Positions 1 through 27,093 of a DNA stretch of 27,830 nucleotides are shown one piece after another. This DNA comes from a virus: positions 1 to 27,830 of the IMG/VR virus record IMGVR_UViG_3300042549_011227, one strand, 5' to 3'. Under the pieces are notes generated by a model that was given only the letters and a program-made list of their open reading frames with translations, was not told the DNA's origin and ran no database searches. The translations under genes were made by a program, and so were the position numbers. Numbering within the stretch: the first letter of the stretch is position 1; each line of letters starts with the position of its first letter.

Positions 1-117
1 GCTGCCGAGGCTCCCGCTGCCGAGGCTCCCGCTGCCGAGGCTCCCGCTGCCGAGGCTCCCGCTGCCGAGGCTCCCGCTGCCGAGGCTCCCGCTGCCGAGG
101 CTCCCGCTGCCGAGGCT
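1..117 (+). repeat. 15-nt tandem repeat array (AAEAP codons)
   Basis: Seven perfect copies of GCTGCCGAGGCTCCC are followed by a truncated eighth copy in which the last codon becomes CGG. The array starts at or before the window edge. It is in frame with the downstream coding sequence, so copy-number change would lengthen or shorten the linker without a frameshift. Perfect nucleotide identity indicates recent expansion or homogenisation. Confidence 0.97.
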
Positions 118-7371: not shown

Positions 7372-7389
7372 TGCGAGCGCCGCTCGCAT
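7372..7389 (+). repeat. Late-operon hairpin repeat, copy 1
   Basis: The core GCGAGCGCCGCTCGCAT at 7373-7389 forms a seven-base-pair stem (7372-7378 with 7382-7388) and a GCC loop. It lies between the tail terminator and sheath genes. This is the shortest stem of the four copies; a CTCATCCTTTTATCC stretch follows. Confidence 0.8.
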
Positions 7390-7423
7390 CCCCTCATCCT
7401 TTTATCCGCCGGAGCCGCGCGCC

Positions 7424-8908
7424 ATGACCGTGCCTTTCAGCCAGATTCCCAGCACCCTTCGCGTGCCGCTCTTCTATGCCGAGCTGGACGCCAGCCGCGC
7501 CAACAGCCTGCAGGTCAACCAGCGGACGCTGATCCTCGGGCCCAAGACCTCGGCCGGGACCCTGGCGGCCAACATCGCCGTGCCGATGACCAGCCTGGGC
7601 GCGACCCGCGCCGGCGGCGGGGCAGGCTCCGTCCTGGCCCTGATGGCCGACGCCTACCGCGCCAACGACGCCTTCGGCGAGACCTGGATCCTGCCGCTGG
7701 ACGACAGCGCCGGCACGGCCGCCACCGGGACCATCGTCGTCACCGGCCCGACCACCGCCGCCGGGGTGCTCAGCCTCTATGTCGCCGGCAAGCGGGTCCC
7801 TGTGACCATGGCGTCGGGCCTCAGCGCCACGGCTGCCGGCGCCGCCATCGCCGCGGCGATCAACGCCGACCCCGACCTGCCGGTGACCGCCGCCAACTCG
7901 ACCGGCACAGTGACCTGCACGGCTCGCAACAAGGGCACGGTCGGCAACGACATCGACCTTCGCGTCAACTATCGCGGATCGAGCGCCGGCGAGGTCACCC
8001 CCGCCGGCCTCGGCGTGACCATCACCGCCATGGCCAGCGGCGCCACCAACCCGGTCCTGACCACCGCCCTGGCCAACCTTCAGGACGAACCGTTCGACGT
8101 CATCGTCTGCCCCTATACCGACGCCACGACGATCGCCGCCCTCAAGGCCTTCCTCAACGACAGCGTCGGGCGTTGGTCCTGGCAGGTCCAGGTCTACGGC
8201 CATGTGATCGCCGCCTACAGCGACACCGCCGCCAACCTGCTGACCTTCGGCGCCACCCAGAACGATCAGCACGCAACCATCATGGGCATCTACGACAGCC
8301 CGGCTCCGGCCTGGATCTGGGCGGCGGAAATCGCCGCGGCTTCGATGGTCTCGCTGCGCAACGACCCGGGCCGGCCGCTGCAGACCCTGGCGCTGCAGGG
8401 GCCGCTGATCAAGGCGCCGCCCCTGGCCAGCCGGTTCAACCTCTCGGTCCGCAACAGCCTGCTCTACAAAGGCATTTCGACCTTCACCGTCGATCGCGAC
8501 GGCACGGTGAGGATCGAAAACCTGATCACCACTTACCAGACCAATGCCGGCGGCCAGCCCGACAACAGCTATCTGCAGGTCGAAACGCCCTTCACCCTGA
8601 TGTTCGTGCTCCGCTTCCTGCGGAACCGCATCACCAGCCGCTACGGCCGGGTCAAGCTGGCCCGCAACGGGACCAACTTCGCGCCGGGTTCGGCCATCGT
8701 CACCCCGAACATCATCAAGGCCGACCTGATCGCCGCTTATCGGGAACTGGAGTTCCTCGGCATGGTCCAGGACGCGGAAGGGTTTGCCGCCGCCCTGATC
8801 GTCGAGATCAACGCCGCCAACCCCAGCCGGCTCGACGTCCTCTACCCGGCCAACCTAGTCGGCGGGCTGCGGATCTTCGCGCTGCTGGCCCAGTTCCGCC
8901 TGGCCTGA
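7424..8908 (+). CDS. Contractile tail sheath protein (Mu gpL-like)
   Basis: 494 residues from ATG 7424, close to the Mu sheath (495 aa). Typical features are the N-terminal VPFSQIPSTLRVPLFYAELD, the early RTLILGPK strand, the inserted variable domain (about 100-200), and the conserved C-terminal region with LLYKGISTFTVDRDGTVRIE, ITTYQTNAGGQPDNSYLQVE and the end strand NLVGGLRIFALLAQFRLA. The sheath contracts to drive the tube through the cell envelope, so its presence establishes a myovirus-type tail. Hairpin repeats lie in the gaps on both sides, consistent with its being a high-copy structural product. Very secure. Confidence 0.95.
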   Translation: MTVPFSQIPSTLRVPLFYAELDASRANSLQVNQRTLILGPKTSAGTLAANIAVPMTSLGATRAGGGAGSVLALMADAYRANDAFGETWILPLDDSAGTAATGTIVVTGPTTAAGVLSLYVAGKRVPVTMASGLSATAAGAAIAAAINADPDLPVTAANSTGTVTCTARNKGTVGNDIDLRVNYRGSSAGEVTPAGLGVTITAMASGATNPVLTTALANLQDEPFDVIVCPYTDATTIAALKAFLNDSVGRWSWQVQVYGHVIAAYSDTAANLLTFGATQNDQHATIMGIYDSPAPAWIWAAEIAAASMVSLRNDPGRPLQTLALQGPLIKAPPLASRFNLSVRNSLLYKGISTFTVDRDGTVRIENLITTYQTNAGGQPDNSYLQVETPFTLMFVLRFLRNRITSRYGRVKLARNGTNFAPGSAIVTPNIIKADLIAAYRELEFLGMVQDAEGFAAALIVEINAANPSRLDVLYPANLVGGLRIFALLAQFRLA

Positions 8909-8924
8909 TCGGCCACCCTCGCTA

Positions 8925-8961
8925 CCGTCAGCCATGCGAGCGCCGCTCGCATGGCTGACGG
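8925..8961 (+). repeat. Late-operon hairpin repeat, copy 2 (17-bp perfect stem)
   Basis: Bases 8925-8941 pair without mismatch to 8945-8961 around a GCC loop. The shared core is 8936-8952. It begins 17 bases after the sheath stop and ends 33 bases before the tube start. With no T tract directly after the stem it looks more like a stability or processing element than a standard terminator, though partial termination is possible. Confidence 0.9.
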
Positions 8962-8994
8962 CCGTTCCAAGTTTCCCACCACAGGAATCACGCC

Positions 8995-9351
8995 ATGGCC
9001 GCTCTCGCCGGTATCGTCTACCTCACCGTCTCGGGCCGCCGCATGCGCGTGGTCGGCGAGGCCACCTACAAGCTATCCGGCCGCAAGCGGGAGACGCTGA
9101 CCGGCCAGGACAATGTTCACGGCTTCAAGGAAATGCCGATCGCCGGGCGGATCGCCGCCACCGTGCGAGCGGACGGCGACCTCAGCATGGCGACGGTCAA
9201 GGCCTGGACTGACGAGACTGCCGTGCTCGAGCTGGCCAACGGCAAGGTCGTCGTCGGCCGCAACATGTGGACCGTCGAAGAGCAGGAGGTGAACACCGAA
9301 GAGGGCACCTTCCCGCTAGTCCTCGAAGGTCCCGACGTCACCGAAAACTAA
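8995..9351 (+). CDS. Tail tube protein (Mu gpM-like)
   Basis: 118 residues from ATG 8995, preceded by CAGGAATC. The size and the pattern IVYLTVSGRRMRVVGEATYK followed by KRETLTGQDNVHGFKEMPIA and ADGDLSMATVKAWTDETAVL match the Mu-type tail tube family, a single beta-sandwich whose hexamer rings stack into the inner tube. It follows the sheath gene directly, as in Mu. The C-terminal VEEQEVNTEEGTFPLVLEGP is also typical. Secure call. Confidence 0.9.
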   Translation: MAALAGIVYLTVSGRRMRVVGEATYKLSGRKRETLTGQDNVHGFKEMPIAGRIAATVRADGDLSMATVKAWTDETAVLELANGKVVVGRNMWTVEEQEVNTEEGTFPLVLEGPDVTEN

Positions 9352-9384
9352 GTGTTCCCCCCACATCCAGACGAGGCCCAACCC

Positions 9385-9921
9385 ATGACCGAACTTGCCG
9401 ACTCCCTGACCATCGACCTTCGCAAGGCGCTGACCGAACAGACTGATTCCGGGGAGCGCAGCATCACCCAGTTGCAGCTGCGGGAGCCGACCGGAGGTGA
9501 GATGCGGGACGCGGAGGGGCTAAAGCTGAACGTGCCCGTCACCATCCGGGTTGTGGCCCTTGTGACAGGCCTCAAGGAGGCGACAGTGCGTGGTCTGCCG
9601 TCTCGGGACCTGAAAAGGGCTGGAGACTATCTTTCAGCCTTCGTTCTCGCTCCGGAGCGCGTCTTCGAAACGGCGACACTGCCTAGCACCCTGGACTTCC
9701 CTCTCGCGTCTCCTTTGCTCGGGCCGACTGGCGCTGTCGCGGTCATCAGCTTGTCGGAGCCAACCGCCGGACAGCTGGAAGAGTTTGAGCACCTTGATGG
9801 GTGGGCTAGGCGGGTCAAATCCGTCGCCACCGTCGCGGCTCTTCCAGAGTCGGTCGTGGGCCGGATTGCGGTTAGGCCGCTGGCGGACATGGGGGCCTAT
9901 CTCGACGCTTTTTTCGCCTGA
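9385..9921 (+). CDS. Tail assembly chaperone, short form (gpE/gp41-like), duplicated domain
   Basis: 178 residues from ATG 9385; a GTG at 9352 directly after the previous stop would add 11 residues with no visible ribosome site. It lies between tube and tape measure genes, the standard place for the chaperone that coats the tape measure during tail assembly. The protein contains two similar halves: ITQLQLREPTGGEMRDAE to DYLSAFV (27-87) and AVISLSEPTAGQLEEFE to AYLDAFF (119-177), both with the (R/S)EPT(G/A)G motif of this family. The last codons contain the slippery heptamer T TTT TTC, so this is the 0-frame product. Third codon positions are less GC-rich than in the neighbouring sheath and tube genes. 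Confidence 0.85.
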   Translation: MTELADSLTIDLRKALTEQTDSGERSITQLQLREPTGGEMRDAEGLKLNVPVTIRVVALVTGLKEATVRGLPSRDLKRAGDYLSAFVLAPERVFETATLPSTLDFPLASPLLGPTGAVAVISLSEPTAGQLEEFEHLDGWARRVKSVATVAALPESVVGRIAVRPLADMGAYLDAFFA

Positions 9922-10061
9922 GGCCGCTGGGTTGCCAGCACATCCTGGTCGCCCTCGCCCTTCGGTTCGGCTGGACTGACCAGGCCATGATGGCAATGCG
10001 GTGGTCGAAGCTGATCTTTTACTATGACGAGCTGGTGCGGATCTCGCGCCGCGCGACCTAA
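9385..10061 (+). CDS. Tail assembly chaperone, -1 frameshift long form
   Basis: Predicted as join(9385-9915, 9915-10061). After slippage on T TTT TTC (9909-9915) translation continues in the -1 frame for 48 codons, RLRPLGCQHILVALALRFGW through FYYDELVRISRRAT, to TAA 10059-10061, giving about 225 residues. The -1 frame has no plausible start of its own at this point but encodes a protein-like sequence with aromatic and charged residues expected of the long chaperone form. The stop is followed immediately by AAGGAG and the tape measure ATG. The same arrangement of short and frameshifted long forms is established for lambda G/GT and P2 E/E'. Not tested experimentally here. Confidence 0.8.
9909..9915 (+). 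other. -1 ribosomal frameshift slippery site T TTT TTC
   Basis: In the 0 frame the codons are GCT TTT TTC GCC TGA, and the heptamer obeys the X XXY YYZ rule with X and Y both T. Ten bases downstream, GCTGG (9926-9930) pairs with CCAGC (9935-9939) around GTTG, and further on CCTGGTC (9944-9950) pairs with GACCAGG (9978-9984). These are candidate stimulatory structures. Confidence 0.82.
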
Positions 10062-10070
10062 GGAGCGTCC

Positions 10071-11663
10071 ATGGTCAAGCCGTTCCAGGTCGATATTACC
10101 GCCAGGGACCGGACCCAGGCGGGGATCCGCGCCGCCGAAAGGCGCTTCGAGGGCATGCAGAAGCCACTCGAACGGCTGTCAAAGCGCACCGATCGATGGG
10201 CCGGCGGCTCGGGGATGGCTCGGGTCGCTAGAGGCCTAAGCGGGATTTCCGGGGCTGGCGCGGACGCAGCTCGCGGCCTGGGTGCGGCGATTGAGGGGGC
10301 TTCTGGACTGGGCCTGGCGGCATCGGCTGCAGCATGGGGCTTGGGGAGTTTTGTCGCCGTCGCTGGCCTAGCGGTCGCTGTTGGAACCAAGTTCGGCGTT
10401 GAGTGGGTCAAATCCACGTCTGCCACCACACGGCTGGCGCGCGGTATCGGTATGGCGTCGCAGGAGCTGCAGCAGTTTCAGATAGCCGGTAAGCTTGCCG
10501 GCGTGGGTGCCGAAGCGATGACCTCCGCCCTGCAGGGCGTCGGCGATGTCTTCAACGACGCTGCCTGGGGCCGAAACGTCGAGGCGCAGGGGATGCTCAG
10601 CCAGTTGGGCATCCGGCTGAAGCGGACCAAGGACGGCGCCGTCGATGTCAAGGCCGCGATGATTGACATCGCCAAGGCTATGGAGGGCCGGTCGCCCCAG
10701 ACCCAGCGCAAGATCGCCAGCATCCTCGGGGTTGAAGGGGCCTTGCCCTTCCTCAACCGTGGGCGCGCTGCCGTCCAACGTGACCTGAACGACGCCATGC
10801 GAAGTGGCGCCATCGTTATGGACGACCAAGGGAAGTCTGCTGAAGAATTGGAGCGCTCCCTCGCGCGGCTTGAGTGGCGCGTTGCGGGCCTCAAGCGCTC
10901 AATGACCGAAAACTGGGTCATGCCCTGGCTGAAGCCTGCGATAGAAAGTGCGGGTCGGAAGGGGGGCTGGATTGAGACTTTGACTGGCGCGATTGACGGC
11001 GACCCCAAGGCGACTGCCAAGATCCGCAAGACCTTTTTCAATGACCACGCAAAGCCGCGACTGGTCGCCAGCGGCTTTGGCGAGTTCGCCAACCGCATCG
11101 AGCAGCAGGAAAGCCGGGGGCGCCAGTTTTTTAAGGGGACTAACCGTCCTCTGGTTTCCTCCGCCGGCGCGATCGGCGTGATGCAGTTGATGCCGGAAAC
11201 GGCCGCCGCCACCGCGCGTAAGCACGGCATCGCTTTCAGCCTGGAGCGGCTGAGAAACGATGAAGCCTACAACCGCCGTCTCGGCCGCCTGCATCTCTGG
11301 GACCTCCAGCAGAAGTACGGCACGGAAGTCCTGGCGGCCGCCGCCTACAACGCCGGGGAGGGGCGGCTGGACGGCATGTGGCGGGGCAAGGGGGCGAACC
11401 GCCGCTGGCAGCCTGGTTGGTTGAAGACTATCGGCGACCCCCGGAAGGGGGAGATCTCGGAGGAGGCGTTCATGCAGCGCATCCCCATACCGGAAACCAA
11501 TGGCTACGTCGCCGCCACCGCCGGCCTCTCTGCCAGGCCGGGCCAGGCGACCGTCGACATCAATCTTCGTGGCGCGCCACGCGGCACGACGGCCCAGGTC
11601 AGCGGCGATCGCCATACCGAGGCCCGGGTCAAGATCGCGCACGCGATGGTCGACCACCACTAG
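10071..11663 (+). CDS. Tail tape measure protein with lytic transglycosylase (SLT) domain
   Basis: 530 residues from ATG 10071, with AAGGAG at 10060-10065 as a clear ribosome site. Residues 1-60 are basic and helical; 65-108 are Ala/Gly-rich and hydrophobic; the middle is helical; residues about 335-440 form an SLT-type lysozyme-like domain with the catalytic-Glu segment RIEQQESRG (Glu347 probable), GAIGVMQLMPETA (366-378) and AAAAYNAGEG (422-431). The protein sets tail length and is probably injected with the DNA; the transglycosylase would open peptidoglycan locally. It is short for a tape measure (Mu about 711 aa), and a third of it is enzyme, implying a short tail. Codon use is less GC3-biased than its neighbours. 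Confidence 0.88.
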   Translation: MVKPFQVDITARDRTQAGIRAAERRFEGMQKPLERLSKRTDRWAGGSGMARVARGLSGISGAGADAARGLGAAIEGASGLGLAASAAAWGLGSFVAVAGLAVAVGTKFGVEWVKSTSATTRLARGIGMASQELQQFQIAGKLAGVGAEAMTSALQGVGDVFNDAAWGRNVEAQGMLSQLGIRLKRTKDGAVDVKAAMIDIAKAMEGRSPQTQRKIASILGVEGALPFLNRGRAAVQRDLNDAMRSGAIVMDDQGKSAEELERSLARLEWRVAGLKRSMTENWVMPWLKPAIESAGRKGGWIETLTGAIDGDPKATAKIRKTFFNDHAKPRLVASGFGEFANRIEQQESRGRQFFKGTNRPLVSSAGAIGVMQLMPETAAATARKHGIAFSLERLRNDEAYNRRLGRLHLWDLQQKYGTEVLAAAAYNAGEGRLDGMWRGKGANRRWQPGWLKTIGDPRKGEISEEAFMQRIPIPETNGYVAATAGLSARPGQATVDINLRGAPRGTTAQVSGDRHTEARVKIAHAMVDHH

Positions 11664-11675
11664 GAGCCTGCGCCG

Positions 11676-13007
11676 ATGTCGGACTTCGTCAAGTCGCTGC
11701 GTCAGGCGTCCTTCCGGGGCGTGCCGTTCGCGGTCCTGACCAGTGAAGGGCAATATGGCCGGCGACTGGCCATCCATGAGTATCCCTTTCGGGACAAGCC
11801 CTGGCTCGAGGATCTCGGCCGCAAGACCCGGCCCATCACCTTCACCGCCTTCCTGGTCTCCGATAGCCTGGTCTATGGCGGCGGCGATGTTCAGGCGCAG
11901 CGCGAGAAACTGGTCGCCGCCTGCGAGGCTCCGGGATCCGGCAAGCTTGTCCACCCGACCCTCGGCGATCTAACCGTCGCCGCCGATGGCGTGGTCATCA
12001 CCGAGCGCTGGAACGAACATCGCTACTTCGAGGTGGCCTTCCGGTTCATCGAGGACGGCGGTCGGATCTATCCCGCCACCACAGCCGCCACTGGCCCGAA
12101 GGTCGCCGCCAAGGGCCTGGAGGGAATGCTTGAGGCGGCGGAGGCCTGGTCTGCCAAGGCGACCGCCGCACTGGCCAAGGGCTCGATCGCCGTACAGAAG
12201 GCCTTGGCCACGGCGCGCGGCTGGACAGACCGGATCACCGGCCTGGGCCAGGACGCCGCCGGCATGTTCCGGCTGACCGGCGCCCTTTCCGGCAGTTTCG
12301 GGCGCTACTTCCTTGGCCGGCTCCGCGGGGGCTTTACGGCGGTCACCGCCTTCCGCCAGCCCCTTACCAGCGTTACCGACCTGATCGTCGACAGCGCCGC
12401 CGGCCGCGCCCTGCTGGCGCTGCGCGGCGACGCCGTCCTCGCGGCCTTGGGGGCCCTCGGCCAGGGCGGCAGCCTGGAGGATGTCGCCGCCGCCGTCGCC
12501 GCCCAGGTCGAGGCCCTGGCCGACAGTCTGGCCGGGCCCGCCGATCGGGTTCGGCTGCTGATCGATCTGACCGCCTACGCCCCTTCCCTGGACCTGCTGT
12601 CCAGCGCCGTCGGCGGCGCCCTGGGCGACCTCTACCGCCGGGCGGCGGTCATCGCCCTGGCCAATGCCGCGACAACCTATCAGCCGGCGTCCTTCGACGA
12701 CGCCTCGGAAGTCCTGGCCCGGGTCCTCACCGTTCTCGACGCGGAGATCCTCATCGCCGGCGACGCCGGAGAGGACGGGGTGTTCTCGGCGCTTCGCGCC
12801 CTCAGGGCGGCGGTGGTCGAGGACCTGAGGGCGCGGGGGGCCAATCTCGCGCCGATCGCCGACTTTGCGACCCCGGAGCCCATGCCGTCCCTGACCCTCG
12901 CGCAGCGCCTGTACCGCGACCCGTCACGGGCCGCGGAGCTGGAGATCCAGGCTGATCCCATCCACCCCCTGTTCATGCCGACCGCCTTCCGCGCTCTGGC
13001 ACGCTAG
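11676..13007 (+). CDS. DNA circularisation / baseplate protein (Mu gpN-like)
   Basis: 443 residues from ATG 11676, with GGAG overlapping the preceding stop. The N-terminal 125 residues carry the conserved gpN pattern: ASFRGVPFAVLTSEGQYGRR, HEYPFRDKPWLEDLGRKTRP, and VHPTLGDLTVAADGVVITER ending in FEVAFRFIEDG. The rest is Ala-rich and helical. The domain is named for a DNA circularisation activity reported historically, but in Mu the protein is a tail or baseplate component encoded after the tape measure, exactly as here. The structural role is more likely than a DNA role. Confidence 0.88.
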   Translation: MSDFVKSLRQASFRGVPFAVLTSEGQYGRRLAIHEYPFRDKPWLEDLGRKTRPITFTAFLVSDSLVYGGGDVQAQREKLVAACEAPGSGKLVHPTLGDLTVAADGVVITERWNEHRYFEVAFRFIEDGGRIYPATTAATGPKVAAKGLEGMLEAAEAWSAKATAALAKGSIAVQKALATARGWTDRITGLGQDAAGMFRLTGALSGSFGRYFLGRLRGGFTAVTAFRQPLTSVTDLIVDSAAGRALLALRGDAVLAALGALGQGGSLEDVAAAVAAQVEALADSLAGPADRVRLLIDLTAYAPSLDLLSSAVGGALGDLYRRAAVIALANAATTYQPASFDDASEVLARVLTVLDAEILIAGDAGEDGVFSALRALRAAVVEDLRARGANLAPIADFATPEPMPSLTLAQRLYRDPSRAAELEIQADPIHPLFMPTAFRALAR

Positions 13008-13015
13008 GAGCTTCC

Positions 13016-14077
13016 ATGGCCGAGCTGGATGATGAGCTGACGCTGGTCGTCGGCGGCCAGGCCATCTCCGGCTGGCAAGATGTCGAACTGACCCAGGGGA
13101 TGGAGCAGATCCCCAACCACTTCGACATTCAGCTGACCGAACGATATTCGGGCGAAATGAACCAGGCCGTCGTCAAGCGCGGCGACCCCTGCGAGGTCCG
13201 GCTTGGCGCCGACAAGGTGCTGACCGGCTTCATCGACCGCTACATCACCACCGGCGACCCGTCGAACATGCAGGTCCGCATCATCGGCCGAGGCAAGACC
13301 TGCGACCTGGTCGACTGCAGCGCAGAGTGGGACGGCGGCCAGATCAGCGGCTCCAACGCCGCCGAAATCGCCACCAAGCTCTGCGCCGCCTACGGGATTA
13401 AGGTCCGTCAGGTCGGCGATGTCGGACCCGCCATCCCGCAGTTCAACTTCATGCTGGGCCAGACGCCGTTCGAGATCATCGACTCCATCTGCCGCTTCGC
13501 CGGCCTTCTCTTCTATGAGAACAGCGACGGTGACCTTGTGATCAGCGGCGTGGGATCCGAAGAGGCCGCCAGCGGCCTGGCGGAAGGGGAGAACGTCGAG
13601 CGGGCTTCGGTCACCTTCGCCCACGACGAACGGTTCAGCGAGTACCACGTCTATCTGATGGCCACCCAGGTCCTGGGCGACGTCGGCCAGGGCGGCAACC
13701 AACTGTCGGTCGAGAAGGACCCCGGCGTCGCCCGCAACCGCAAGCGGTTCATCATCGCCGAGGCCCCCGCCGGCGGACAGGACGTCTCAAAGCGCCGGGC
13801 CATCTGGGAAGCGACGCGGCGTGCCGGGCGCGGCACCCTGATCGACGCCACGGTAGATAGCTGGCGCGATTCCGCGGGTAAGCTGTGGGCCCCGAACACG
13901 CATGTGCCGGTCGCCCTGCCAAGCTGGCGTCAGCCGGCGGGGCTCAAGCGCGTGCTGTCTCAGGTGACCTTCCAGCGGAATGCCAAGGGCAGTCGGGCGC
14001 GCCTGATTCTCATGCCGAAGACCGCCTTCCTGCCCGAGCCCATTCAGCTTCTGCCCTTCTTCGCGGATCTCGCATGA
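13016..14077 (+). CDS. Baseplate hub protein (Mu gpP/gp44-like)
   Basis: 353 residues from ATG 13016 with TAGGAG directly upstream. Sequence features are the opening LTLVVGGQAISGWQDVELTQ, the domain GDPCEVRLGADKVLTGFIDR, the typical MQVRIIGRGKTCDLVDCSAE segment and the later QTPFEIIDSICRFAGLLFYE. This is the hub component at the centre of contractile-tail baseplates, analogous to T4 gp27 and the gpD hub of P2. It follows gpN and precedes gp45, as in Mu, and overlaps the next gene by ATGA at 14074-14077. Secure call. Confidence 0.9.
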   Translation: MAELDDELTLVVGGQAISGWQDVELTQGMEQIPNHFDIQLTERYSGEMNQAVVKRGDPCEVRLGADKVLTGFIDRYITTGDPSNMQVRIIGRGKTCDLVDCSAEWDGGQISGSNAAEIATKLCAAYGIKVRQVGDVGPAIPQFNFMLGQTPFEIIDSICRFAGLLFYENSDGDLVISGVGSEEAASGLAEGENVERASVTFAHDERFSEYHVYLMATQVLGDVGQGGNQLSVEKDPGVARNRKRFIIAEAPAGGQDVSKRRAIWEATRRAGRGTLIDATVDSWRDSAGKLWAPNTHVPVALPSWRQPAGLKRVLSQVTFQRNAKGSRARLILMPKTAFLPEPIQLLPFFADLA

Positions 14078-14646
14078 ACCGACTGTTTACCCAGATGAAG
14101 CGGGCGCTGGGCCTGGCGGTGATCAAGCTGATCGACGACACCGGCCCCTATCAGATGGTGCAGGTCGACCTGGGGCCGATCGGCCAGGACGGTAAGGCGC
14201 TGCAGCTGCGCGACAAGACGCCGGTCCTGCAGCACTACGGGTTCAGCTCCAACCCGCCGCCCGGTTCTGACGCCGCCATCATCGCCCTCGGTGGTGACGC
14301 CAACCAGGTGCTGGTCATCGCCACCGGCAACCGCGAATTCCGCATCCCGATGCCGTCCGGCGGCGCCGTCATCCACGACAACGACGGACACTTCATCAAG
14401 ATCATTCCCGGCCAGGGGATTCATTCGCTGGGCGTCCTGCTGCAGGACGGCGACAGCACGATCAACGGCGAGACCCTGGTCAATGGCAACATGACCGTCG
14501 TCGCCCCGGCCAACGTCATCCTTGATGCGCCGGCTGTGTCAACCACCGGCAACCTGGCGGCCGGCACCGGAGCGACCGGCAGCTTCACCACTCCGACGGG
14601 CGACGTCGTCACCGTCCAGGCCGGCGTCATCACCAACATCGGATAG
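14074..14646 (+). CDS. Baseplate assembly / spike protein (Mu gp45-like)
   Basis: 190 residues from ATG 14074. An OB-fold-like N-terminal half (DDTGPYQMVQVDLGPIGQDG, LQHYGFSSNPPPGSDAAIIA, then NQVLVIATGNREFRIPMPSG) precedes a C-terminal beta-repeat region (INGETLVNGNMTVVAPANVI, APAVSTTGNLAAGTGATGSF). This is the membrane-piercing central spike arrangement of the gp45/gpV family. In Mu, gp45 is the tip that first contacts the outer membrane. The order after the hub and before gp46/gp47 agrees. Translationally coupled to the hub gene. Secure call. Confidence 0.9.
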   Translation: MNRLFTQMKRALGLAVIKLIDDTGPYQMVQVDLGPIGQDGKALQLRDKTPVLQHYGFSSNPPPGSDAAIIALGGDANQVLVIATGNREFRIPMPSGGAVIHDNDGHFIKIIPGQGIHSLGVLLQDGDSTINGETLVNGNMTVVAPANVILDAPAVSTTGNLAAGTGATGSFTTPTGDVVTVQAGVITNIG

Positions 14647-14654
14647 GATCTGCC

Positions 14655-15071: not shown

Positions 15072-15108
15072 TCCGCGGCCGTTCAATCCCCCAACGCACG
15101 GAGCCGCC

Positions 15109-15552
15109 ATGGCCGACATCGCCACCCGCTGGTCGACAGAGGATGGGCGGGGAGACTGGGCCCTGGTCGGGCCGGATCTCGCGGCCGACCTCGAGATCCA
15201 GACCGCCGTCATCCTCAGCCTGTTCAGCGATCGCGTTGCCGGGCCCGATGACGTCATCCCGGACGGTACGGCGGATCCGCAGGGATGGTGGGCCGACGAT
15301 GCCGAACATCCCCTGGGCTCAAGGCTCTGGCTGCTCGACCGGGCCAAACAGACCGACCAGGTCCTGCAGGACGCCCGCGTCTACGCCCAGGAAGCCCTGG
15401 CCTGGCTGGTCGCCGACGGGGTCGCCGCCAGCACCATCAGCGAGGCCAGCTGGGTCCGCGCCGGGATGCTGGGCCTGGTGGTGACGATCTTCAAACCGGA
15501 CGGCTCCAGCGCCGTCTTCCGCTTCGAGAGCGCCTGGTTGGGAACTGTTTAG
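15109..15552 (+). CDS. Baseplate wedge protein, Mu gp46 family
   Basis: 147 residues from ATG 15109. The gp46 pattern is visible: an N-terminal DGRGDWALVGPDLAADLEIQ, then LETAV-type helix (TAVILSLFSDRVAGPDD), GWWADD followed by LGSRLWLLDRAKQ, and the C-terminal LGLVVTIFKPDGSSAVFRFE. This family is the gp25/lysozyme-like wedge component in Mu-type baseplates. Its stop abuts the next ATG with no gap, matching the coupled gp46-gp47 order in Mu. Confidence 0.88.
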   Translation: MADIATRWSTEDGRGDWALVGPDLAADLEIQTAVILSLFSDRVAGPDDVIPDGTADPQGWWADDAEHPLGSRLWLLDRAKQTDQVLQDARVYAQEALAWLVADGVAASTISEASWVRAGMLGLVVTIFKPDGSSAVFRFESAWLGTV

Positions 15553-16695
15553 ATGCCCTATCCCCGCAAGACCCTCACCGAACTGCGCGCCGAGGTCTAC
15601 GCCGACATCGACGGGGCCCTGGAGGGCTCACAGTCTCTGCTGCGCCACTCCAACCTGCATATCCTCGGCGCCGCCCAGGCCGGGGCAGTCAATGGCCTCT
15701 ACGGCTATCTCGACTATATCGCCCGTCAGAGCGTTCCCTACACGGCCGAGGGTGAGAACCTGATCGCCTGGGCGGCGCTCAAGGGCGTGGTCCAGAAGCC
15801 GCCGGGCGCGGCCCATGGGCCTGTGCCGCTGACCGGAGCCCCGGATTCGCTGATCCTGGAGGGGACGCGGATTGTCCGGGCGGATGGGGCCAGTTTCAGC
15901 CTGACCGGCGACGTCACCCTCGACGGGGCTGGGCTGGGCACGGGCCAGGTGACCGCCGATGTTCCGGGCCTGGCCGGCAACACCCCCGCGGGTTCGGTCC
16001 TGGCGCTGGCCTCGCCGATCGCCGGGGTCAACTCGACCATCACCCTGGTCAGCCCGATCGACGGCGCGACGGATATCGAGAGCCTGCCGGCCTTGAGAAC
16101 CCGAATGCTCGAGGCCTATGCCGCCCCGGCGCGGGCGGGCACGCCGGCCGACTATATCCGCTGGGCCAAGCAGGTGCCGGCCGTGACCCGGGCGTGGGCC
16201 AAGCGCAATGGCATGGGCGCGGGTACGGTCCTGGTCTGGTTCATGGAAGACATCGCCCGCGCCGGGTTCGGCGGTTTTCCCCAGGGCGACGACGGCGTCG
16301 CCACGGATGAGGAGCGGGCGACCAGCGCCACGGGCGATCAGCTGATCGTCGCCGACTACATCTTCCCGCTGCAGCCGGTTCCGGCCCTGGTCTTCGCCGC
16401 CTCGCCTCTGCAGAACCTTCTGGTCTTCACGATCGCCGGCCTTGCGGGATCCAGCACGGCCACCCGCAACCTGATCGCCCAGGCGATCCGCGACGTCCTC
16501 TATGACCAGGGCGAGCCCGGCGGGCTGGTCGAGCTCAGCTTCATTACCGGCGCCCTGTCGGCCATCCCGGCGGCGACCGGCTATGTCATCACCGGCATCA
16601 CCGCCAGCGCCGGCACGATCAACCCCAGTGGCGACGGCAACATCACCTCCGACAGCGGCTGCCTGCCAGTGCTCAGCTCGGTGACCTACACATGA
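15553..16695 (+). CDS. Baseplate J protein, Mu gp47 family
   Basis: 380 residues from ATG 15553, which immediately follows the gp46 stop. Family features include the start KTLTELRAEVYADIDGALEG, LYGYLDYIARQSVPYTAEGE, DVPGLAGNTPAGSVLALASP, and the block LRTRMLEAYAAPARAGTPAD followed by VTRAWAKRNGMGAGTVLVWF. Baseplate J proteins form the outer wedge that triggers sheath contraction. Size matches the family. Overlaps the next gene as ATGA at 16692-16695. Confidence 0.93.
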   Translation: MPYPRKTLTELRAEVYADIDGALEGSQSLLRHSNLHILGAAQAGAVNGLYGYLDYIARQSVPYTAEGENLIAWAALKGVVQKPPGAAHGPVPLTGAPDSLILEGTRIVRADGASFSLTGDVTLDGAGLGTGQVTADVPGLAGNTPAGSVLALASPIAGVNSTITLVSPIDGATDIESLPALRTRMLEAYAAPARAGTPADYIRWAKQVPAVTRAWAKRNGMGAGTVLVWFMEDIARAGFGGFPQGDDGVATDEERATSATGDQLIVADYIFPLQPVPALVFAASPLQNLLVFTIAGLAGSSTATRNLIAQAIRDVLYDQGEPGGLVELSFITGALSAIPAATGYVITGITASAGTINPSGDGNITSDSGCLPVLSSVTYT

Positions 16696-17291
16696 CGGCG
16701 CCGCTGTTCAGTCGCGTCGACTACCGCCGCGCCCTGCAGCGGCTGCTGCCCCGCGGCCGCGCCTGGCCGCGCGATGAGGATTCGGTGCAGGTGCGGGTGC
16801 TCGATGGGCTGGCGGGATCGCTGGCGGCGCTCGACGCCTCGGCCCAGTTCCTGCTGGCCGACAGTTTCCCGGCCCAGGCGGTCAGCCTGCTGCCGGACTG
16901 GGAGGCGACGCTCGGACTGCCCGATCCCTGCAGCGGCGACACCCCCAGCATCCCTGCGCGCCAGGGCCAGGTGGTCGCCAGGCTCGCAGACAATGGTGGC
17001 GCTTCGGTCCTGGACCTGACCGCCTATGCCGCCCGCCTGGGCTTCACCATCACCATCCAGACCTTCTCGCCATTCCGCATGGGGGTCAGCGGCATGGGGA
17101 CCGGGATCTATGTCGAGGCCGCCGCCCACGCCTTCGCCGTCCAGGCGCCGGAGACAACGGTCACGCCGTTCCAGATGGGGCTGAGCGGCATGGGCGATCC
17201 CTTCCAGGGCTTCGGCAACGACGTCCTCGAGTGCGAGATCTCCGCCCTCGCCCCGGCCCACACCACCGTCATCTACCAGTACGGCGCCTAA
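16692..17291 (+). CDS. Tail protein, Mu gp48 / YmfQ (DUF2313) family
   Basis: 199 residues from ATG 16692. The N-terminus YRRALQRLLPRGRAWPRDED and the segment FPAQAVSLLPDWEATLGLPD are the hallmarks of the YmfQ/gp48 family, which connects the baseplate to the fibres. A repeated block is visible near the end, SPFRMGVSGMGTGIY and TPFQMGLSGMGDPFQ, and the protein ends with LECEISALAPAHTTVIYQYG. It is the last of the six Mu-ordered baseplate genes. Secure call. Confidence 0.9.
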   Translation: MTAPLFSRVDYRRALQRLLPRGRAWPRDEDSVQVRVLDGLAGSLAALDASAQFLLADSFPAQAVSLLPDWEATLGLPDPCSGDTPSIPARQGQVVARLADNGGASVLDLTAYAARLGFTITIQTFSPFRMGVSGMGTGIYVEAAAHAFAVQAPETTVTPFQMGLSGMGDPFQGFGNDVLECEISALAPAHTTVIYQYGA

Positions 17292-17343
17292 GCGCGAGCG
17301 CTCCCCGCCGGCTGGGTCCTCCCATCATCGATCGAGGCCTGCC

Positions 17344-18009
17344 ATGCACCAGTACGACCACCCGACAGCCGTTCCCGTCCAGCCCGATCCCGGCGCGCCC
17401 GGCACGCCGGGATTCATGCGCGACGGCGACCCCGGGGCCGGAACCCCGCCCAGCATCTGGTCCAGCAAGCTGGCCAATTCGATGATGATGGAGCTGATCA
17501 ACGCCGTGCAGGGCGGCGGTCAGACCCTGGATCAGGACAATGACGCCCAGCTGCTGGCCGCCATCACCGCCATAGCCACCAGTGCCGCGGGAGCGGCGGC
17601 GGGCTTTGTCGGCGAGATCCGCACCAAGGCCGGCCCGACGGTGCCGTCCGGCTGGCTGGAGTGCAATGGCGCGGCTGTCAGTCGGACCACCTATGCCGGA
17701 CTGTTCGCCGAGATCGGCGTGCTCTGGGGACCGGGCAACGGCACCACCACTTTCAACATTCCGGACCAGGACGACGCCTTTTTCCGCGGCATCCGATCTG
17801 GTCGGGCGATCGGTGAGTTCGAAGCCTCCAGCTTCCCCGCCCACACCCACGGCGCGGGCTTCATCGACACGGAGGGGCGGTCCGACGCCGGCAGCAGCAT
17901 GATCGTCCCGACCAACACGGGCGGCCTGTCCGGCTTCAGCACCGCCAGCGCCGGCGGGGCTGAAAACCGCCCGGACAGCTACGGCGTGATGTTCATCATC
18001 AAGACCTGA
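17344..18009 (+). CDS. Tail fibre protein with phage tail collar domain
   Basis: 221 residues from ATG 17344. The N-terminal 85 residues are Pro/Gly-rich followed by an Ala-rich helix (LANSMMMELINAVQGGGQTL). Residues 88-221 form a tail-collar domain: GEIRTKAGPTVPSGWLECNG, NGTTTFNIPDQDDAFFRGI, the histidine motif SFPAHTHGAG (163-172) and the typical end AENRPDSYGVMFIIKT. Such short collar fibres are receptor-binding or fibre-tip proteins. Its position after gp48 and before the long fibre indicates the adhesion module. Confidence 0.88.
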   Translation: MHQYDHPTAVPVQPDPGAPGTPGFMRDGDPGAGTPPSIWSSKLANSMMMELINAVQGGGQTLDQDNDAQLLAAITAIATSAAGAAAGFVGEIRTKAGPTVPSGWLECNGAAVSRTTYAGLFAEIGVLWGPGNGTTTFNIPDQDDAFFRGIRSGRAIGEFEASSFPAHTHGAGFIDTEGRSDAGSSMIVPTNTGGLSGFSTASAGGAENRPDSYGVMFIIKT

Positions 18010-18041
18010 CGCCGCCCCCTCCTTTCCCGCCCGACCCATAA

Positions 18042-18072
18042 GCCCCGAAGCGAGCGCCGCTCGCATCGGGGC
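18042..18072 (+). repeat. Late-operon hairpin repeat, copy 3
   Basis: The core GCGAGCGCCGCTCGCAT is at 18050-18066. The stem runs 18042-18055 with 18059-18072: six inner pairs, one A-A mismatch, then seven outer pairs in GCCCCGA/TCGGGGC. It lies 32 bases after the collar fibre stop and 25 bases before the long fibre start. Confidence 0.85.
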
Positions 18073-18097
18073 ATTCGCCGTTTCAAGGACCCGCTTC

Positions 18098-20767
18098 ATG
18101 TCCGCTGTCGCCATTCCCGGCCCGATCGCCACCGCCCTGACCAGCGCCGACTGGGAACTGGACCTGATCTTCTGCCAGGGGTCCGAGGACCTGGTCGAGG
18201 ACTGGACCGGGTCCTCGGTGCAGCTGGTCCTCTGGCGCAAGCTGGCGGCCCAGTCCTGGCGTCTCGAGCTGGACAGCGCCGAGGCCGAGGGCCTGCTGCC
18301 CCCCACTCCTTATGTCCCCGTGCGGATCCGCGTGCCGGCGGCGACCATGAACACCCTGGCGGCCGGGACCTACGCTGGCGAAGTCCGGCGGATATTCCCG
18401 GGCGGCGGTGTGGAGTTCGTCGCCACCTTCAGCCTGGAGCTCGACCAGGGCCAGACGACTCCGGAGGGTGATCCCGGCGGCGTCAGTAACGGGGTGACCT
18501 CCGGCGAGACGGTCAAGTTGCTGCGTCAGGTCGGCGCCCTGAAGATCCTCCGCGCCGGCGGCGCCCGGGGGCTGAGCGCCAAGCAGGTGGCCATCGACGG
18601 AGAGTCGGAGGGCCTGTCGCCGACCGCCAGCGACGGCGAATTCGCCAACTGGCTGCGTCAGCCGGCGGTGGATGCTGCCGAGGCCGGTATCGGCTCGATC
18701 TCTCAGGCGGTTGAAGCGGTGTTGGCCGAGCCAGGCGGTAGCTTGCCGGTGGCGCGTGACGCGGCGCTCGACCAGTTGGAAGCGGAAGGTGGCGAGCAGC
18801 TTGCCGCCCTGGCTCTGGCCGCCGCGGCAATCCTGTCGGAACCGACTGGAAGCCTGCCGGTCGCGCGTATAGCTGCTCTTGCCGCCGTCGCGCTCGCCGG
18901 CTCTGCAGTGACCTTGTATTTCGATACGTGGGCCGCCCTTGCCGCCCGCTCAACGGCTGGTCTCGTGGATGGTCAGCAGGCGAAGGTCCGCAGCGCCGAC
19001 GCGGGGACGCACACCGATCCCGTAGTCGGTGGCACGGTGAACAACGCGGGTGTGTTCTGTTGGAGCGCATCGCCTGCTGGATGGAAGCGTCTGGCAAATC
19101 TGGAAGCGGACGACGCGGCCAGCTTCCGCGACCTGGCGGCAGCGCAGGCCGTCCTTGCTGCTGCCTCCCAGGTCGGTGCGGCCGCCGAGGCTGCCAAGGG
19201 CGCATCGCTCCGCGCCGTCATGACCGCGACGGCTCAGACCATGGCCGGGCGGTATGACCTATGGGGCGGGGCCGCTAACCTGGTGCCGATCGCCTCCGAC
19301 ATGCTGGACGGGGTTGTTCTGGGCGTGGACAAGGTCACGGGCCGCTTGGGCGGCTCCGCCATCGCCCTGTTGCTGAAGGACGTCGTCGATGCGCAGGGCG
19401 TCTGGCGGCATAACGGGTCCGGTTCCACACTACCGCTGATCGTCGATCGCGACTTCGGCTGCGTCCTGGGAATCGACACTGCGACGGGCGCCGCCACCGG
19501 TTCGCTGATCGCCTCCTTGACTGTTTCCGGCAGCGGCGATGAAACCGCGGCCCTGGCTGCGGCCGACATCCCGATCCGGGCGCAGTGGAACGGCATCATC
19601 GGCAGCGGCGAGAGCCTGTCGGTCGGCGCCAAGGCCCGGCCCGTCCTGTCGACGTCGCAGCCCTACAACAACCTGACCTTCGGTTCAGGCCCGAAGGCCA
19701 GCCGCGCAGGCAACAGTTTCGGCGGCCTGAACACCTCGCCCGGAACCTCGACATCCAAGGCTCTCGTCGAGGACGTTTTGAATACGACGGGCACGGACGC
19801 TGATGGGGAGACGCCCTCGTCCGGTATGGCCAACGGCCTGGTCGAGCGCGGCGCCCGGTTCGGCATCCCGACTTCGTCAGTGTGGTTCGCATCCAGCGCC
19901 GGCCGCTCAGGCGACTATCTCTACCAGCTGATCAAGGGCGCTGCGCAGTACACACAGTTCCTGAACCATGTCACGGATGCCAAGACGCTGGCGACGGCCG
20001 CTGGCAAGAGCTACGCGCTGCATTTCGTGCCCCTGATCCTCGGGGTCAACGACGCCAGCGCCGGCACCTCCTACGCCACCTTCAAGAGCCAGCTAACGCA
20101 GTACGCGACTGATCTGGATACCGATGGCCGCGCCGCCACCGGGCAGACCTCCCCGGTTCATATGCTGATCACCCAGGCCTATCGCGGCGAGGCTGTGGAG
20201 CTGGCACAATTCGATGCCGTCAATGAGCATCGCCTGATCCATTTCGTCTCGCCGATGTTCTTCTTCCCCTGGGACGCCGACCACGTCCACCAGACCAATG
20301 TTGGCACCCGCTGGATGGCTGAATATCTGGCACGCGCCGCGTCCCAGATCATGGACGAACACCGCGAGCCCGACTGCCTGTGGCCCATCGCCTGCTGGGC
20401 GGTCGGGACATTCGTCTACCTCAAGTTCCGGGTTCCGACGCGGCCGATCCAGTTCGATACGACGACGCTTCTGCCGACAACCGACAACGGCATGAAGATC
20501 GTCGACGACACCGGGACGCTGACCCTCTCGTCGCCTCTGGTGATCGACGGCGACACGCTCCGCTACACCATCAATCGGACCCTGGGGACCAACCCGGTCT
20601 GGCGCTGCGGCCTCGACTATGTCGGGACCGGGAACCAGTACCTGAACGTTCGAACCCACAATCTGCGGGACGCTACGCCCGACAGCCGCGTCATCGACGG
20701 CGTCGCTCGGCCCCTTTTCCACGTCGCCCCGCACTTTTCCTTTCCCATCCAAAAAGTGGACATCTGA
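18098..20767 (+). CDS. Long tail fibre / tailspike with SGNH (GDSL-like) hydrolase domain
   Basis: 889 residues from ATG 18098. The N-terminal 150 residues look like a baseplate-anchoring beta domain. A helical Ala-rich connector follows, with a repeated block EPGGSLPVAR (from 211) and EPTGSLPVAR (from 248). The enzyme domain begins about 490: block I is GESLS with probable nucleophile Ser506, block II is in ASSAGRSGDYLYQL, block III is LGVND with Asn651, and block V is DADHVHQ with Asp728 and His731. These are the four SGNH landmarks in order. The C-terminal 130 residues are beta-rich. The likely role is receptor binding with deacylation of a host surface polysaccharide. Substrate cannot be told from sequence. 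Confidence 0.8.
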   Translation: MSAVAIPGPIATALTSADWELDLIFCQGSEDLVEDWTGSSVQLVLWRKLAAQSWRLELDSAEAEGLLPPTPYVPVRIRVPAATMNTLAAGTYAGEVRRIFPGGGVEFVATFSLELDQGQTTPEGDPGGVSNGVTSGETVKLLRQVGALKILRAGGARGLSAKQVAIDGESEGLSPTASDGEFANWLRQPAVDAAEAGIGSISQAVEAVLAEPGGSLPVARDAALDQLEAEGGEQLAALALAAAAILSEPTGSLPVARIAALAAVALAGSAVTLYFDTWAALAARSTAGLVDGQQAKVRSADAGTHTDPVVGGTVNNAGVFCWSASPAGWKRLANLEADDAASFRDLAAAQAVLAAASQVGAAAEAAKGASLRAVMTATAQTMAGRYDLWGGAANLVPIASDMLDGVVLGVDKVTGRLGGSAIALLLKDVVDAQGVWRHNGSGSTLPLIVDRDFGCVLGIDTATGAATGSLIASLTVSGSGDETAALAAADIPIRAQWNGIIGSGESLSVGAKARPVLSTSQPYNNLTFGSGPKASRAGNSFGGLNTSPGTSTSKALVEDVLNTTGTDADGETPSSGMANGLVERGARFGIPTSSVWFASSAGRSGDYLYQLIKGAAQYTQFLNHVTDAKTLATAAGKSYALHFVPLILGVNDASAGTSYATFKSQLTQYATDLDTDGRAATGQTSPVHMLITQAYRGEAVELAQFDAVNEHRLIHFVSPMFFFPWDADHVHQTNVGTRWMAEYLARAASQIMDEHREPDCLWPIACWAVGTFVYLKFRVPTRPIQFDTTTLLPTTDNGMKIVDDTGTLTLSSPLVIDGDTLRYTINRTLGTNPVWRCGLDYVGTGNQYLNVRTHNLRDATPDSRVIDGVARPLFHVAPHFSFPIQKVDI

Positions 20768-20769
20768 CC

Positions 20770-21750
20770 ATGGCCCTGAACCCCGTCATCCGGCTCGCCA
20801 CCCCGGTTCCCGGCGCCAGCGCTTTCCCGCTGACCCCCGGCGACTTCAGCCAGGTCTTCAACTTCCCCTACGAGACGGAGGCCAGCGGCCACTGGTTGTT
20901 CGGGACCGATAACCCCAACCGCCTCGACATGATCGCCAGCCAGCCGATGGCGCGGACGGTGATCCCGACTCTGACCGCCGGCGGCTCCGGTTACCCGGTC
21001 TCGACAACGGTGCCTCTGATCTTCAGCGGCGGGGTGCAGGCCACCGGCGGCAACGCCGCGACGGGGGTTGCCCTGACCAACGGCTCCGGCGTGGTGACCT
21101 CGATCCGGATCACCAACCACGGCCACTACACCTCGGCCCCCACCGCGACCATTTCGACGGCCGGCGGCGGTTCAGGCGGAACCGTCACCATCGCCCTGGG
21201 CGCTGCGGCCACAGACAGCACCGGCTTCCTGACGACCGGTGGAGGAACCAACAGCGGCTTGATGTCACCGATCAACGAGGCGGCCGACCAGACCGAGATC
21301 ATCGTCTTCAAGCGCCAACTCACCGCAGGGCATATGATCTTCGACAGCATGCCCAACGGCACGGTGACGGACGGGCAGGCGGCATACCACTCGGGATCCG
21401 GCGTCTTCAAGGTCCAGACCGGCGGCATGACGGTGCAGGAGCAAACCGTTGCGCCGCCGACCAACTCGGCCGGCGATTGGCTATGGCTTGGGGTGTCCTG
21501 CCGGGGCTCCAGCGGGCGCATCGTGCAATGGGGCGGCGGCGCGGCCTACACCGCCACCGGAACTCGGCCGGTCAACGCCATTCCGTACAAGTGCAACATA
21601 GGCCCGGGCCGCTTTGGCGTCGGCCTCACAGGCTTCATCGACTGCGCAGAACGGATCGTCATCCCGCGCGGCATGACGGCGCCCGAGATGGTCGCCGCCT
21701 ACGGCCGCAGCAAGTCTCGGCTCGCCGCGCGTGGGATCACGATCCTTTAG
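20770..21750 (+). CDS. Probable accessory tail fibre / receptor-binding protein
   Basis: 326 residues from ATG 20770, two bases after the long fibre stop; a longer in-frame reading to 20380 only overlaps the fibre gene. The protein is Gly/Thr/Ser-rich and beta-rich, with a repetitive part (TLTAGGSGYPVSTTVPLIFS, VTSIRITNHGHYTSAPTATI) that resembles beta-prism or head-binding repeats, and a second half (DQTEIIVFKRQLTAGHMIFD to the end SKSRLAARGITIL) with the feel of concanavalin/LamG-like phage tail proteins. A direct role in adsorption is inferred from the fibre location. I do not recognise a specific family with certainty. Confidence 0.6.
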   Translation: MALNPVIRLATPVPGASAFPLTPGDFSQVFNFPYETEASGHWLFGTDNPNRLDMIASQPMARTVIPTLTAGGSGYPVSTTVPLIFSGGVQATGGNAATGVALTNGSGVVTSIRITNHGHYTSAPTATISTAGGGSGGTVTIALGAAATDSTGFLTTGGGTNSGLMSPINEAADQTEIIVFKRQLTAGHMIFDSMPNGTVTDGQAAYHSGSGVFKVQTGGMTVQEQTVAPPTNSAGDWLWLGVSCRGSSGRIVQWGGGAAYTATGTRPVNAIPYKCNIGPGRFGVGLTGFIDCAERIVIPRGMTAPEMVAAYGRSKSRLAARGITIL

Positions 21751-21824
21751 TGAGCAGGGGCCGGGCGAGCGGCCTTTGCCCGCTCACGACACCGTCTCAC
21801 TCCACCAGTTCCAAGGGGGCCACC

Positions 21825-22175
21825 ATGACTTTCGATCCCGACCGCTTCTGGGCGGCCTTGGGGGCCGTGCCCGGGGCGGCGCTCTATGGCCTCTATCATC
21901 TGGCTATCCTGCTCAGGGAGGGGCGCAAGGTGACGCTGACCGACATCCGCGACCTGCTGCTCAACATCGCCTGCGCGGTGCTTTGTGGCGTGCTGCTGGC
22001 CTATATGCTGGCCAAGCCGGTCGCTGCCTTGATCCCCTGGGTCACGCTGCGCGACCCGGTGACCATCGGTTTCGTCCTCGGCGCGTTTGGTTGGGAGTTG
22101 CTGCCGCTCGTGTTCGCCAAGTTCAAGGGCCGGGCGGCGAAGGAGCTGAACCGCATCGACGGAGGCGACCAATGA
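21825..22175 (+). CDS. Small membrane protein, holin candidate
   Basis: 116 residues from ATG 21825, preceded by AAGGGGG. Three hydrophobic segments are visible: FWAALGAVPGAALYGLYHLA (8-27), LLLNIACAVLCGVLLAYMLA (about 44-63) and VTIGFVLGAFGWELLPLVFA (about 79-98), followed by a basic tail KFKGRAAKELNRIDGG. Three-segment topology with a charged C-terminus is typical of class I holins, which open the inner membrane to time lysis. It sits at the head of the lysis cassette and overlaps the next membrane gene as ATGA. No specific holin family is recognised. Confidence 0.6.
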   Translation: MTFDPDRFWAALGAVPGAALYGLYHLAILLREGRKVTLTDIRDLLLNIACAVLCGVLLAYMLAKPVAALIPWVTLRDPVTIGFVLGAFGWELLPLVFAKFKGRAAKELNRIDGGDQ

Positions 22176-22471
22176 CCGGATCCGACTGGCTGGCCCTGAT
22201 TTCGGCGGCGACCTGCAGCGCCGCCCTTGGCCTCAGGGCCAATATGCTCAAGCCGACCTTCAGCAGCTGGTTCGCCGCCCCGACCATCGTCTGGCTGCCG
22301 TTGATGCTGTCGTCGATCGTCATGGCCAGCGTCGCCTTGGCGATCCTCAGGGGCGCCCATATGAGCGGCCTGGTCGCTGTGGCCTTCGCCGCCCAGGCCG
22401 TCGCATCAGTCTCCCTGCTATGGAACCTGGCCCGCCAGTCGCAGCCCCGCCACGGCGGCCCCCACCCCTGA
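22172..22471 (+). CDS. Second small membrane protein of lysis cassette
   Basis: 99 residues from ATG 22172, overlapping the preceding stop by four bases. It has three hydrophobic stretches: WLALISAATCSAALGLRANM, FAAPTIVWLPLMLSSIVMAS running into VALAIL, and LVAVAFAAQAVASVSLLWNL, with a short polar tail. As the coupled partner of the first membrane gene it could be a second holin subunit or an antiholin; neither can be chosen from sequence. The fourth hairpin repeat follows 30 bases after the stop. Confidence 0.55.
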   Translation: MTGSDWLALISAATCSAALGLRANMLKPTFSSWFAAPTIVWLPLMLSSIVMASVALAILRGAHMSGLVAVAFAAQAVASVSLLWNLARQSQPRHGGPHP

Positions 22472-22501
22472 TCTGATCTCCTTCATCGTCGATCGACCCC
22501 C

Positions 22502-22528
22502 GCCCATGCGAGCGCCGCTCGCATGGGC
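22502..22528 (+). repeat. Late-operon hairpin repeat, copy 4 (12-bp perfect stem)
   Basis: Bases 22502-22513 pair perfectly with 22517-22528 around a GCC loop; the core is 22508-22524. It is followed directly by TTTGCC, so this copy comes closest to an intrinsic terminator. It lies between the membrane protein pair and the endolysin gene. Confidence 0.88.
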
Positions 22529-24084: not shown

Positions 24085-24136
24085 TCCTGGCCGCCGCCGT
24101 CGCAACGTCCTGGAAGGCTTAGGCCTCGGACGGTTC

Positions 24137-25765: not shown

Positions 25766-25779
25766 TCGGGGCAGCCTGC

Positions 25780-27033: not shown

Positions 27034-27093
27034 GGTGGCTGTTCTTTCATCTTGCGGCGGGTCTGATCAAGACCATCGTTCGGAACGGGTGGC

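Follow-up and report, generated by a model that had tools for sequence, protein, structure and literature searches.

The DNA analysed here, 27,830 bases of IMG/VR virus record IMGVR_UViG_3300042549_011227 (positions 1 to 27,830, hereafter the window), comes from a Mu/SfV-like myophage, and its rightward late operon contains four exact copies of a 15-bp core, GCGAGCGCCGCTCGC. This conserved core is probably a dispersed DNA site, comparable to parS or to an operator, for an orphan ParB-like protein that this temperate phage encodes in its early region. Sites of this kind were found both within and between genes, their sequence switched symmetrically from one phage class to another, and they were associated with a parB gene; from these sequence patterns, ParB is predicted to bind them.

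All four copies of the window were located in gaps of the late operon, with C as the centre base on the + strand in each case (Table 1). When up to two mismatches were allowed, eight matches were obtained (both strands of the four sites) as compared to a mean of 0.94 and a maximum of 4 in shuffled sequences, and the Markov expectation for the core was 0.01 copies (log10P -9.2). The initial annotation of this DNA had described four identical cores in late-operon gaps, flanking the sheath gene and preceding the long fibre and endolysin genes, and both the copies and their neighbours, labelled through PHROGs, were confirmed.

The genome- and relative-wide search for the core proposed in that annotation found it repeated in related phages and rare in the sampled bacterial genomes. 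The 19-mer RTGCGAGCGCCGCTCGCAY appeared in 36 stretches of 19 IMG/VR records, against two stretches for a permuted control 19-mer, and each of the 11 phage records longer than 25 kb presented repeats, in and between genes, of the quasi-palindrome RTGCGAGCG-C-CGCTCGCAY. Copies of the 15-mer amounted to 12 in record G011 (50.5 kb), eight in G012 (52 kb), six in G013 and in G003 (46 and 48 kb, respectively), and five in G008 (45 kb); it ranked first among dispersed 15-mers, or fell within the leading group of overlapping ones, in G003, G006, G008, G011, and G013. In bacteria, 22 copies were distributed over 21 of 385 alphaproteobacterial genomes, with at most two per genome, and the 17-mer was present in one of 398 Pseudomonadota genomes. 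The high rank of the core among dispersed 15-mers, and the uniform centre base of the window phage described below, could also reflect a host-wide repeat (an uptake signal, a REP-like (repetitive extragenic palindromic) element, a HIP1-like oligomer or an FtsK polar sequence) acquired by phages of one host group. This is very improbable in view of the bacterial counts (the host may lie outside these samples), of site classes that differ from phage to phage, and of GTGCA sites that match ParB in phages of Variovorax and Acidovorax. The generic host terminator, which the initial annotation had named as the case that would overturn its proposal, was provisionally rejected together with the host-wide repeat since there was no enrichment in the sampled genomes, among which the host may not be included. 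One named prophage relative was that of Sphingomonas formosensis (62% for the sheath); its genome holds one core copy, and the core site was absent from its 21.5-kb prophage locus. When the class sample was searched with terminase and primase, no close host was obtained.

The family site set comprised 138 sites from 21 long records plus seven fragments. Many of them (84 of the 138) lay within genes, on either strand, and thus the element is not limited to late-operon gaps; the 54 intergenic sites nonetheless exceeded the 13.5 expected (p 6e-20). In 18 of 21 records the sites were more evenly spaced than at random (sign test p 7e-4); because several of these records are related, the test is not fully independent. 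Along the genome of G011, the centre base was C in the first eight of the twelve sites and G in the last four, that is, a single polarity switch was observed.

The early region of the window phage is probably represented by a second contig, G002 (IMGVR_UViG_3300042549_011231), which would carry its ParB. The 15-nt repeat at the start of the window is also found at the end of this contig, with 108 bases coinciding and an open frame that continues from one to the other; no other fetched contig held the repeat twice. Among the records compared, tetranucleotide usage of the window correlated best with that of G002 (r 0.957). Besides the gene for the ParB-like protein, G002 harbours an integrase (PF00589) and three further sites, and the seven 15-bp sites of window and contig, read on one strand, all have the same centre base, for which the probability with random centre bases would be 1 in 64. 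An ARAGORN call of a 92-nt tRNA-Pro (GGG) at 15232-15323 of G002 (L195), on the minus strand, largely overlaps a predicted early-region gene and is probably spurious, or else an unusual tRNA.

All eight long records first compared had in common a large early protein that starts with a ParB-type domain at its N-terminal side, and the ParB-like protein was encoded in all 11 records above 25 kb among the 19 carrying the 19-mer; the remaining eight are fragments below 22 kb, and it was found in none of the six compared. The ParB_N domain was recognized above its cut-off (PF02195, 4.9e-08, 33.4 bits vs. 26.3), ParB-like proteins also being matched in PHROGs, and a profile of 13 relatives matched the structures of Spo0J (7.2e-29 in the PDB profile search), Noc, and ParB. 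The predicted model had a mean pLDDT (predicted local distance difference test) of 60.6 overall and was better in the first 300 residues, which comprise a winged-helix-like start, the ParB_N fold, and helix-turn-helix (HTH) helices. These helices, at residues 220-293, reached a mean pLDDT of 80-90 in most blocks, and, with E values from 5e-06 to 1e-04, Foldseek matched the model to Noc and ParB. A GERRWRA-like motif of the ParB_N domain was kept in most rows of the alignment; a clamp activity of the cytidine triphosphate (CTP) type is predicted. ParA was not found among the nine other G002 proteins scanned with Pfam nor among the six other G008 proteins scanned with PHROGs, a subset of the genes in both cases.

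Further classes of sites emerged when IMG/VR was searched with the ParB alignment alone and palindromes were then counted de novo in whole records. This search gave 47 loci, and the 15-mer was present in three of the 33 whole records. We named the classes AG (GCGAGCG-type core, as in the window), AA (GCGAACG-N-CGTTCGC), and CA (GCGCACG-N-CGTGCGC). The AA palindrome appeared in eight of the records found through ParB, with four to 21 copies of 13 bp, and the CA palindrome in two; the best arm of each AA or CA record had log10P values, which are Markov estimates uncorrected for the number of palindromes tried, from -8.8 to -46.6. Per motif record, 4-21 of the 13-bp sites were distributed over coding and intergenic DNA. 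The highest number, 21, corresponded to the 95.7-kb record G787 (IMGVR_UViG_2814123113_000001), in which terminase and ParB genes each occur twice and which is probably two prophages side by side; its left half contained mostly shorter CGAACG-N-CGTTCG sites, the full 19-mer type predominating in the right half.

The class of a phage was followed at equivalent positions of its genome. Thus, the gap after the tail-tube gene of 423-430 codons presented an AG site in AG phages and an AA site in AA phages, each with its own complementary flanks. At an aligned position of parB, the AG phages (the window phage with G002, and G012) encode ASGAR whereas the AA phages G786 and G787 encode ANGVR, which indicates that both half-sites switched together, altering the protein at two residues. 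A head gene likewise displayed ASAARM in G795 vs. ANAVRM or ANGVRM in G786-G788. Such a concerted switch throughout a phage is expected if a single trans-acting reader sees all of its sites.

A different palindrome, GTGCA-N6-TGCAC, was present six times in VarioGold (a Variovorax phage) and four times in Aval (an Acidovorax phage), both picked for their ParB. The VarioGold-type site was also found in G838 and, in a weak version, in G837. The ParB proteins of these four phages form one distant clade (bootstrap 99; SH-aLRT, the Shimodaira-Hasegawa-like approximate likelihood ratio test, 97) and ParB was the sole protein that they share, besides an antisense frame that overlaps the parB gene.

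An unbiased set was obtained by choosing 22 new records above 25 kb by terminase similarity only, eight of which had PF02195 over the cut-off. Strong dispersed palindromes (log10P -8 or lower) occurred in three of these eight (G838, G819, and G834) vs. none of the other 14 (Fisher p 0.036), whose best value was -5.3; with the earlier records G787, G788, and G795 added, which came from that search, were not alignment seeds and were already known to be positive, the proportions were 6 of 11 vs. 0 of 14 (p 0.0026). The ParB-like protein of G834 is of another, shorter kind. Its genome (L489-L492) contains TTACC-N4-GGTAA five times, at 4252, 13015, 22305, 31543, and 58531, with intervals of about 9 kb except for the last, about threefold longer, and one copy is close to the short ParB_N gene at 22490. 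ON073792, which encodes both ParA and ParB, had GTTCAG-N4-CTGAAC five times. In the background phages RcOceanus, RHph_TM3_3_3, IPK, and Haboob no palindrome fell below log10P -5.2; a small gene for a ParB-like nuclease is present in RcOceanus, and IPK carries no annotation.

The initial annotation had interpreted the copies as hairpins whose structure is under selection and had proposed testing them as terminators or stabilizers; on this view, RNA hairpins would act at the mRNA 3' ends of sheath, fibre, and endolysin transcripts. Copies 2-4 of the window did fold strongly, and the earlier statement that their outer arms vary yet stay complementary was verified: beyond the core there were 11 pairs in copy 2, seven in copy 3 (past an A-A mismatch), and six in copy 4. 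Copy 1 added a single pair. In the family set, a contiguous outer stem of at least six pairs was present in 11 of the 54 intergenic sites but in none of the 84 coding sites (Fisher p 1.7e-5), indicating that hairpin formation comes on top of the site in some intergenic copies, among them copies 2 and 4 of the window. In the tail-tube gap, the nine phages having a site there all showed at least four extra pairs, with differing stem sequences. These stems and the intergenic excess favour a function in RNA, and the outer stems proved real and longer between genes, so that the earlier view was partly right.

As the main cause of the conserved core, RNA structure was nevertheless not supported, because most family sites lie in genes, classes switch genome-wide, and a phage DNA-binding protein accompanies them. 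The core sequence itself, beyond its pairing, is fixed in each phage and changes throughout the genome between phages, and the association with ParB would be left unexplained by hairpins. Nor did termination fit, as the initial annotation had already suspected from the scarcity of T tracts: these were weak, none of the four sites was called terminator-like, for which a U tract after a GC-rich stem is required, and the calls in the region (9) were close to the shuffle mean (9.4). No Rfam match reached the gathering threshold. We consider hairpins an unlikely explanation of the core as such; a separate role in RNA (mRNA 3' ends, stability or partial termination) for the intergenic hairpins by the abundantly expressed tail genes is plausible alongside that of the DNA site. 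Downstream of the lysis genes, a strong hairpin at window 24171-24199, with TTGCGTTTCG after it, was the best candidate for an intrinsic terminator in the region.

Several observations weigh against ParB as the reader of the sites. The window itself has no ParB gene, and the link is made through G002. AA and CA records were found through ParB, so that their having it is not independent evidence. Sites inside parB were barely above chance (12 of 26 records vs. 7.5 expected, p 0.04), and the dispersed sites of G837 were few (three copies, log10P -4.7). The ParB-like phages G793, G798, G803, G805, G829, G830, G833, and G836 showed no strong dispersed palindrome, G798 having only an AT-rich arm three to five times. 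De novo counting gave no palindrome of the AG, AA or CA kind in six ParB records (G792, G793, G798, G800, G803, and G805), and a wider scan recovered only the looser GCGAA-N5-TTCGC, seven times in G792 (log10P -8.8) and four times in G800 (-4.2). The Serratia phage BZS1, with a 280-residue ParB-like protein, had been predicted beforehand to carry dispersed sites and had none; they were absent too from its relative phiNP, in which no ParB is annotated. Finally, no correlation was seen between the HTH of ParB and the AG, AA, and CA classes, nearly identical helices accompanying AG and AA, and the classes are scattered over the ParB tree (which omitted G830, G833, G834, and G836, with another ParB type, and G829, with no usable domain). 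This indicates that residues outside the HTH decide or that another factor takes part. Alignment columns separating AG from AA numbered one over all sequences and 29 in a close set, not interpretable beyond phylogeny.

The mismatch between HTH and class would suit operators of another phage DNA-binding protein, such as a CI-like repressor or an HTH regulator, with ParB only co-travelling. HTH regulators do occur in the same early regions, and a precedent for dispersed phage-specific sites is provided by the stoperators of cluster A mycobacteriophages (PMC6550527). Such a regulator is quite unlikely to be the reader, as no protein other than ParB was common to the 21 motif records (the next most shared reached 18), to the four phages with GTGCA sites or to five distant phages of class AA.

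With ParB as the favoured reader, the orphan protein made from the early region would recognize the quasi-palindromes and, as a CTP-type clamp, might load at these sites along the phage genome, where they are typically spaced by a few kb. Its job may resemble that of KorB or of stoperators, lytic and late genes being held down in the prophage or their expression shaped; alternatively, it could serve genome organization, protection, or modification at packaging. Some intergenic copies additionally form part of longer hairpins near tail genes. A broader proposal, which we advance tentatively and at somewhat less than even probability, is that a network for clamp loading extends over the whole genome of integrating temperate phages, in which a large orphan ParB-like protein would coat, regulate or protect the whole phage DNA from parS-like sites often a few kb apart, its specificity having switched several times with all sites rewritten in concert, even through codons.

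Known systems offer partial parallels. In ParB-parS partition, parS has an ACGT centre; the phage proteins share the ParB_N fold plus HTH and palindromic sites, those of the GTGCA clade often with ACGT at the centre, whereas the phage sites are spread over the genome instead of clustered and no ParA was among the neighbours scanned. Since the phage carries an integrase, partition is not an obvious need. N15 and P1, whose phage ParB/SopB proteins also use inverted-repeat sites, are plasmid prophages with ParA, the centromere sites of N15 being dispersed; in contrast, G002 encodes an integrase. The numerous OB operators of KorB on plasmid RK2 have odd symmetry around an S base. KorB resembles the present case in that one replicon combines a ParB-family protein with numerous short palindromes dispersed along it, and here too such sites are many; RK2 is, however, a plasmid and not an integrating phage, KorB needs KorA and has another site sequence, and the phage protein, for which binding is predicted, is predicted to have additional winged helices and continues into a long C-terminal portion. 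KorB is known to slide as a CTP clamp and to silence over long range (PMC11790492). The cluster A stoperators are likewise dispersed phage-wide sites bound by a repressor and varying in sequence by phage (PMC6550527); they are asymmetric, with the immunity repressor as the protein that binds them (PMC9283540), unlike the near-perfect palindrome found here, whose candidate reader is ParB-like.

Among orphan and prophage ParB-CTPase proteins already surveyed, the prophage-borne ParB fold mostly lacks a ParA-binding motif; in the accessible portion of that article DNA sites on the phage genome are not described, and the string "palindrom" is missing from its main text (PMC12704722). Dispersed ParB sites were not described either in the mainly open-access portions of the phage ParB and VarioGold literature (PMC12704722, PMC9658991, PMC7556043, and PMC6536676), and the 15-mer and its reverse complement were not found as sequences in the open-access literature searched. 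PMC6536676 cites an earlier proposal in which ParB-like proteins of phages guide DNA modification to particular sites at packaging, which is another possible role for sites of the kind found in the window phage.

If ParB does read these sites, a class of phage ParB-like proteins with a largely unexplored role would gain a function and a readable DNA target, genome-wide control of the KorB or stoperator type would extend to integrating phages of Proteobacteria, and the switched sites would constitute a natural series for studying how specificity evolves in the ParB family. Repeated "hairpins" in GC-rich phage genomes may, by the same token, be DNA sites instead of RNA structures.

Table 1. Sites, neighbouring genes and contig-joining features of the window phage (window positions unless stated otherwise).
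Feature	Position	Strand	Remarks
Dispersed site, copy 1	7373..7387	+	between a gene of 194 codons and the sheath gene; without outer stem
Dispersed site, copy 2 (core 8936-8950), within an 18-bp inverted repeat	8925..8961	+	between sheath and tube genes
Dispersed site, copy 3 (core 18050-18064), 7-bp outer stem past an A-A mismatch	18042..18072	+	before the tail fibre gene (889 residues)
Dispersed site, copy 4 (core 22508-22522), 6-bp outer stem	22502..22528	+	before the endolysin gene
Tail sheath gene, copies 1 and 2 on either side	7424..8908	+	phrog_165; PF04984
Tail tube gene	8995..9351	+	phrog_185
Long tail fibre gene	18098..20767	+	phrog_4201
Endolysin gene	22551..23189	+	phrog_181
15-nt tandem repeat (AAEAP codons)	1..118	+	window start; continues in frame the gene that ends G002
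ParB-like gene	G002 15623-17854		outside the window

Other features of the window were also observed. An imperfect acidic repeat region rich in Asp and Glu (3648-3873) lies in the gene at 3589-4248, between the portal and major head protein genes, which is possibly scaffold- or protease-like. Near the right end, the segment 24100-26700 displayed lower GC (0.60 at 24001-26000) and few confident genes. On the minus strand, a HigB-like toxin gene (27147-27461, PF05015) adjoins a small HTH gene (26713-27033), with which it probably forms a toxin-antitoxin pair (26713-27461), and a 22-nt inverted repeat is located at 27433-27476.

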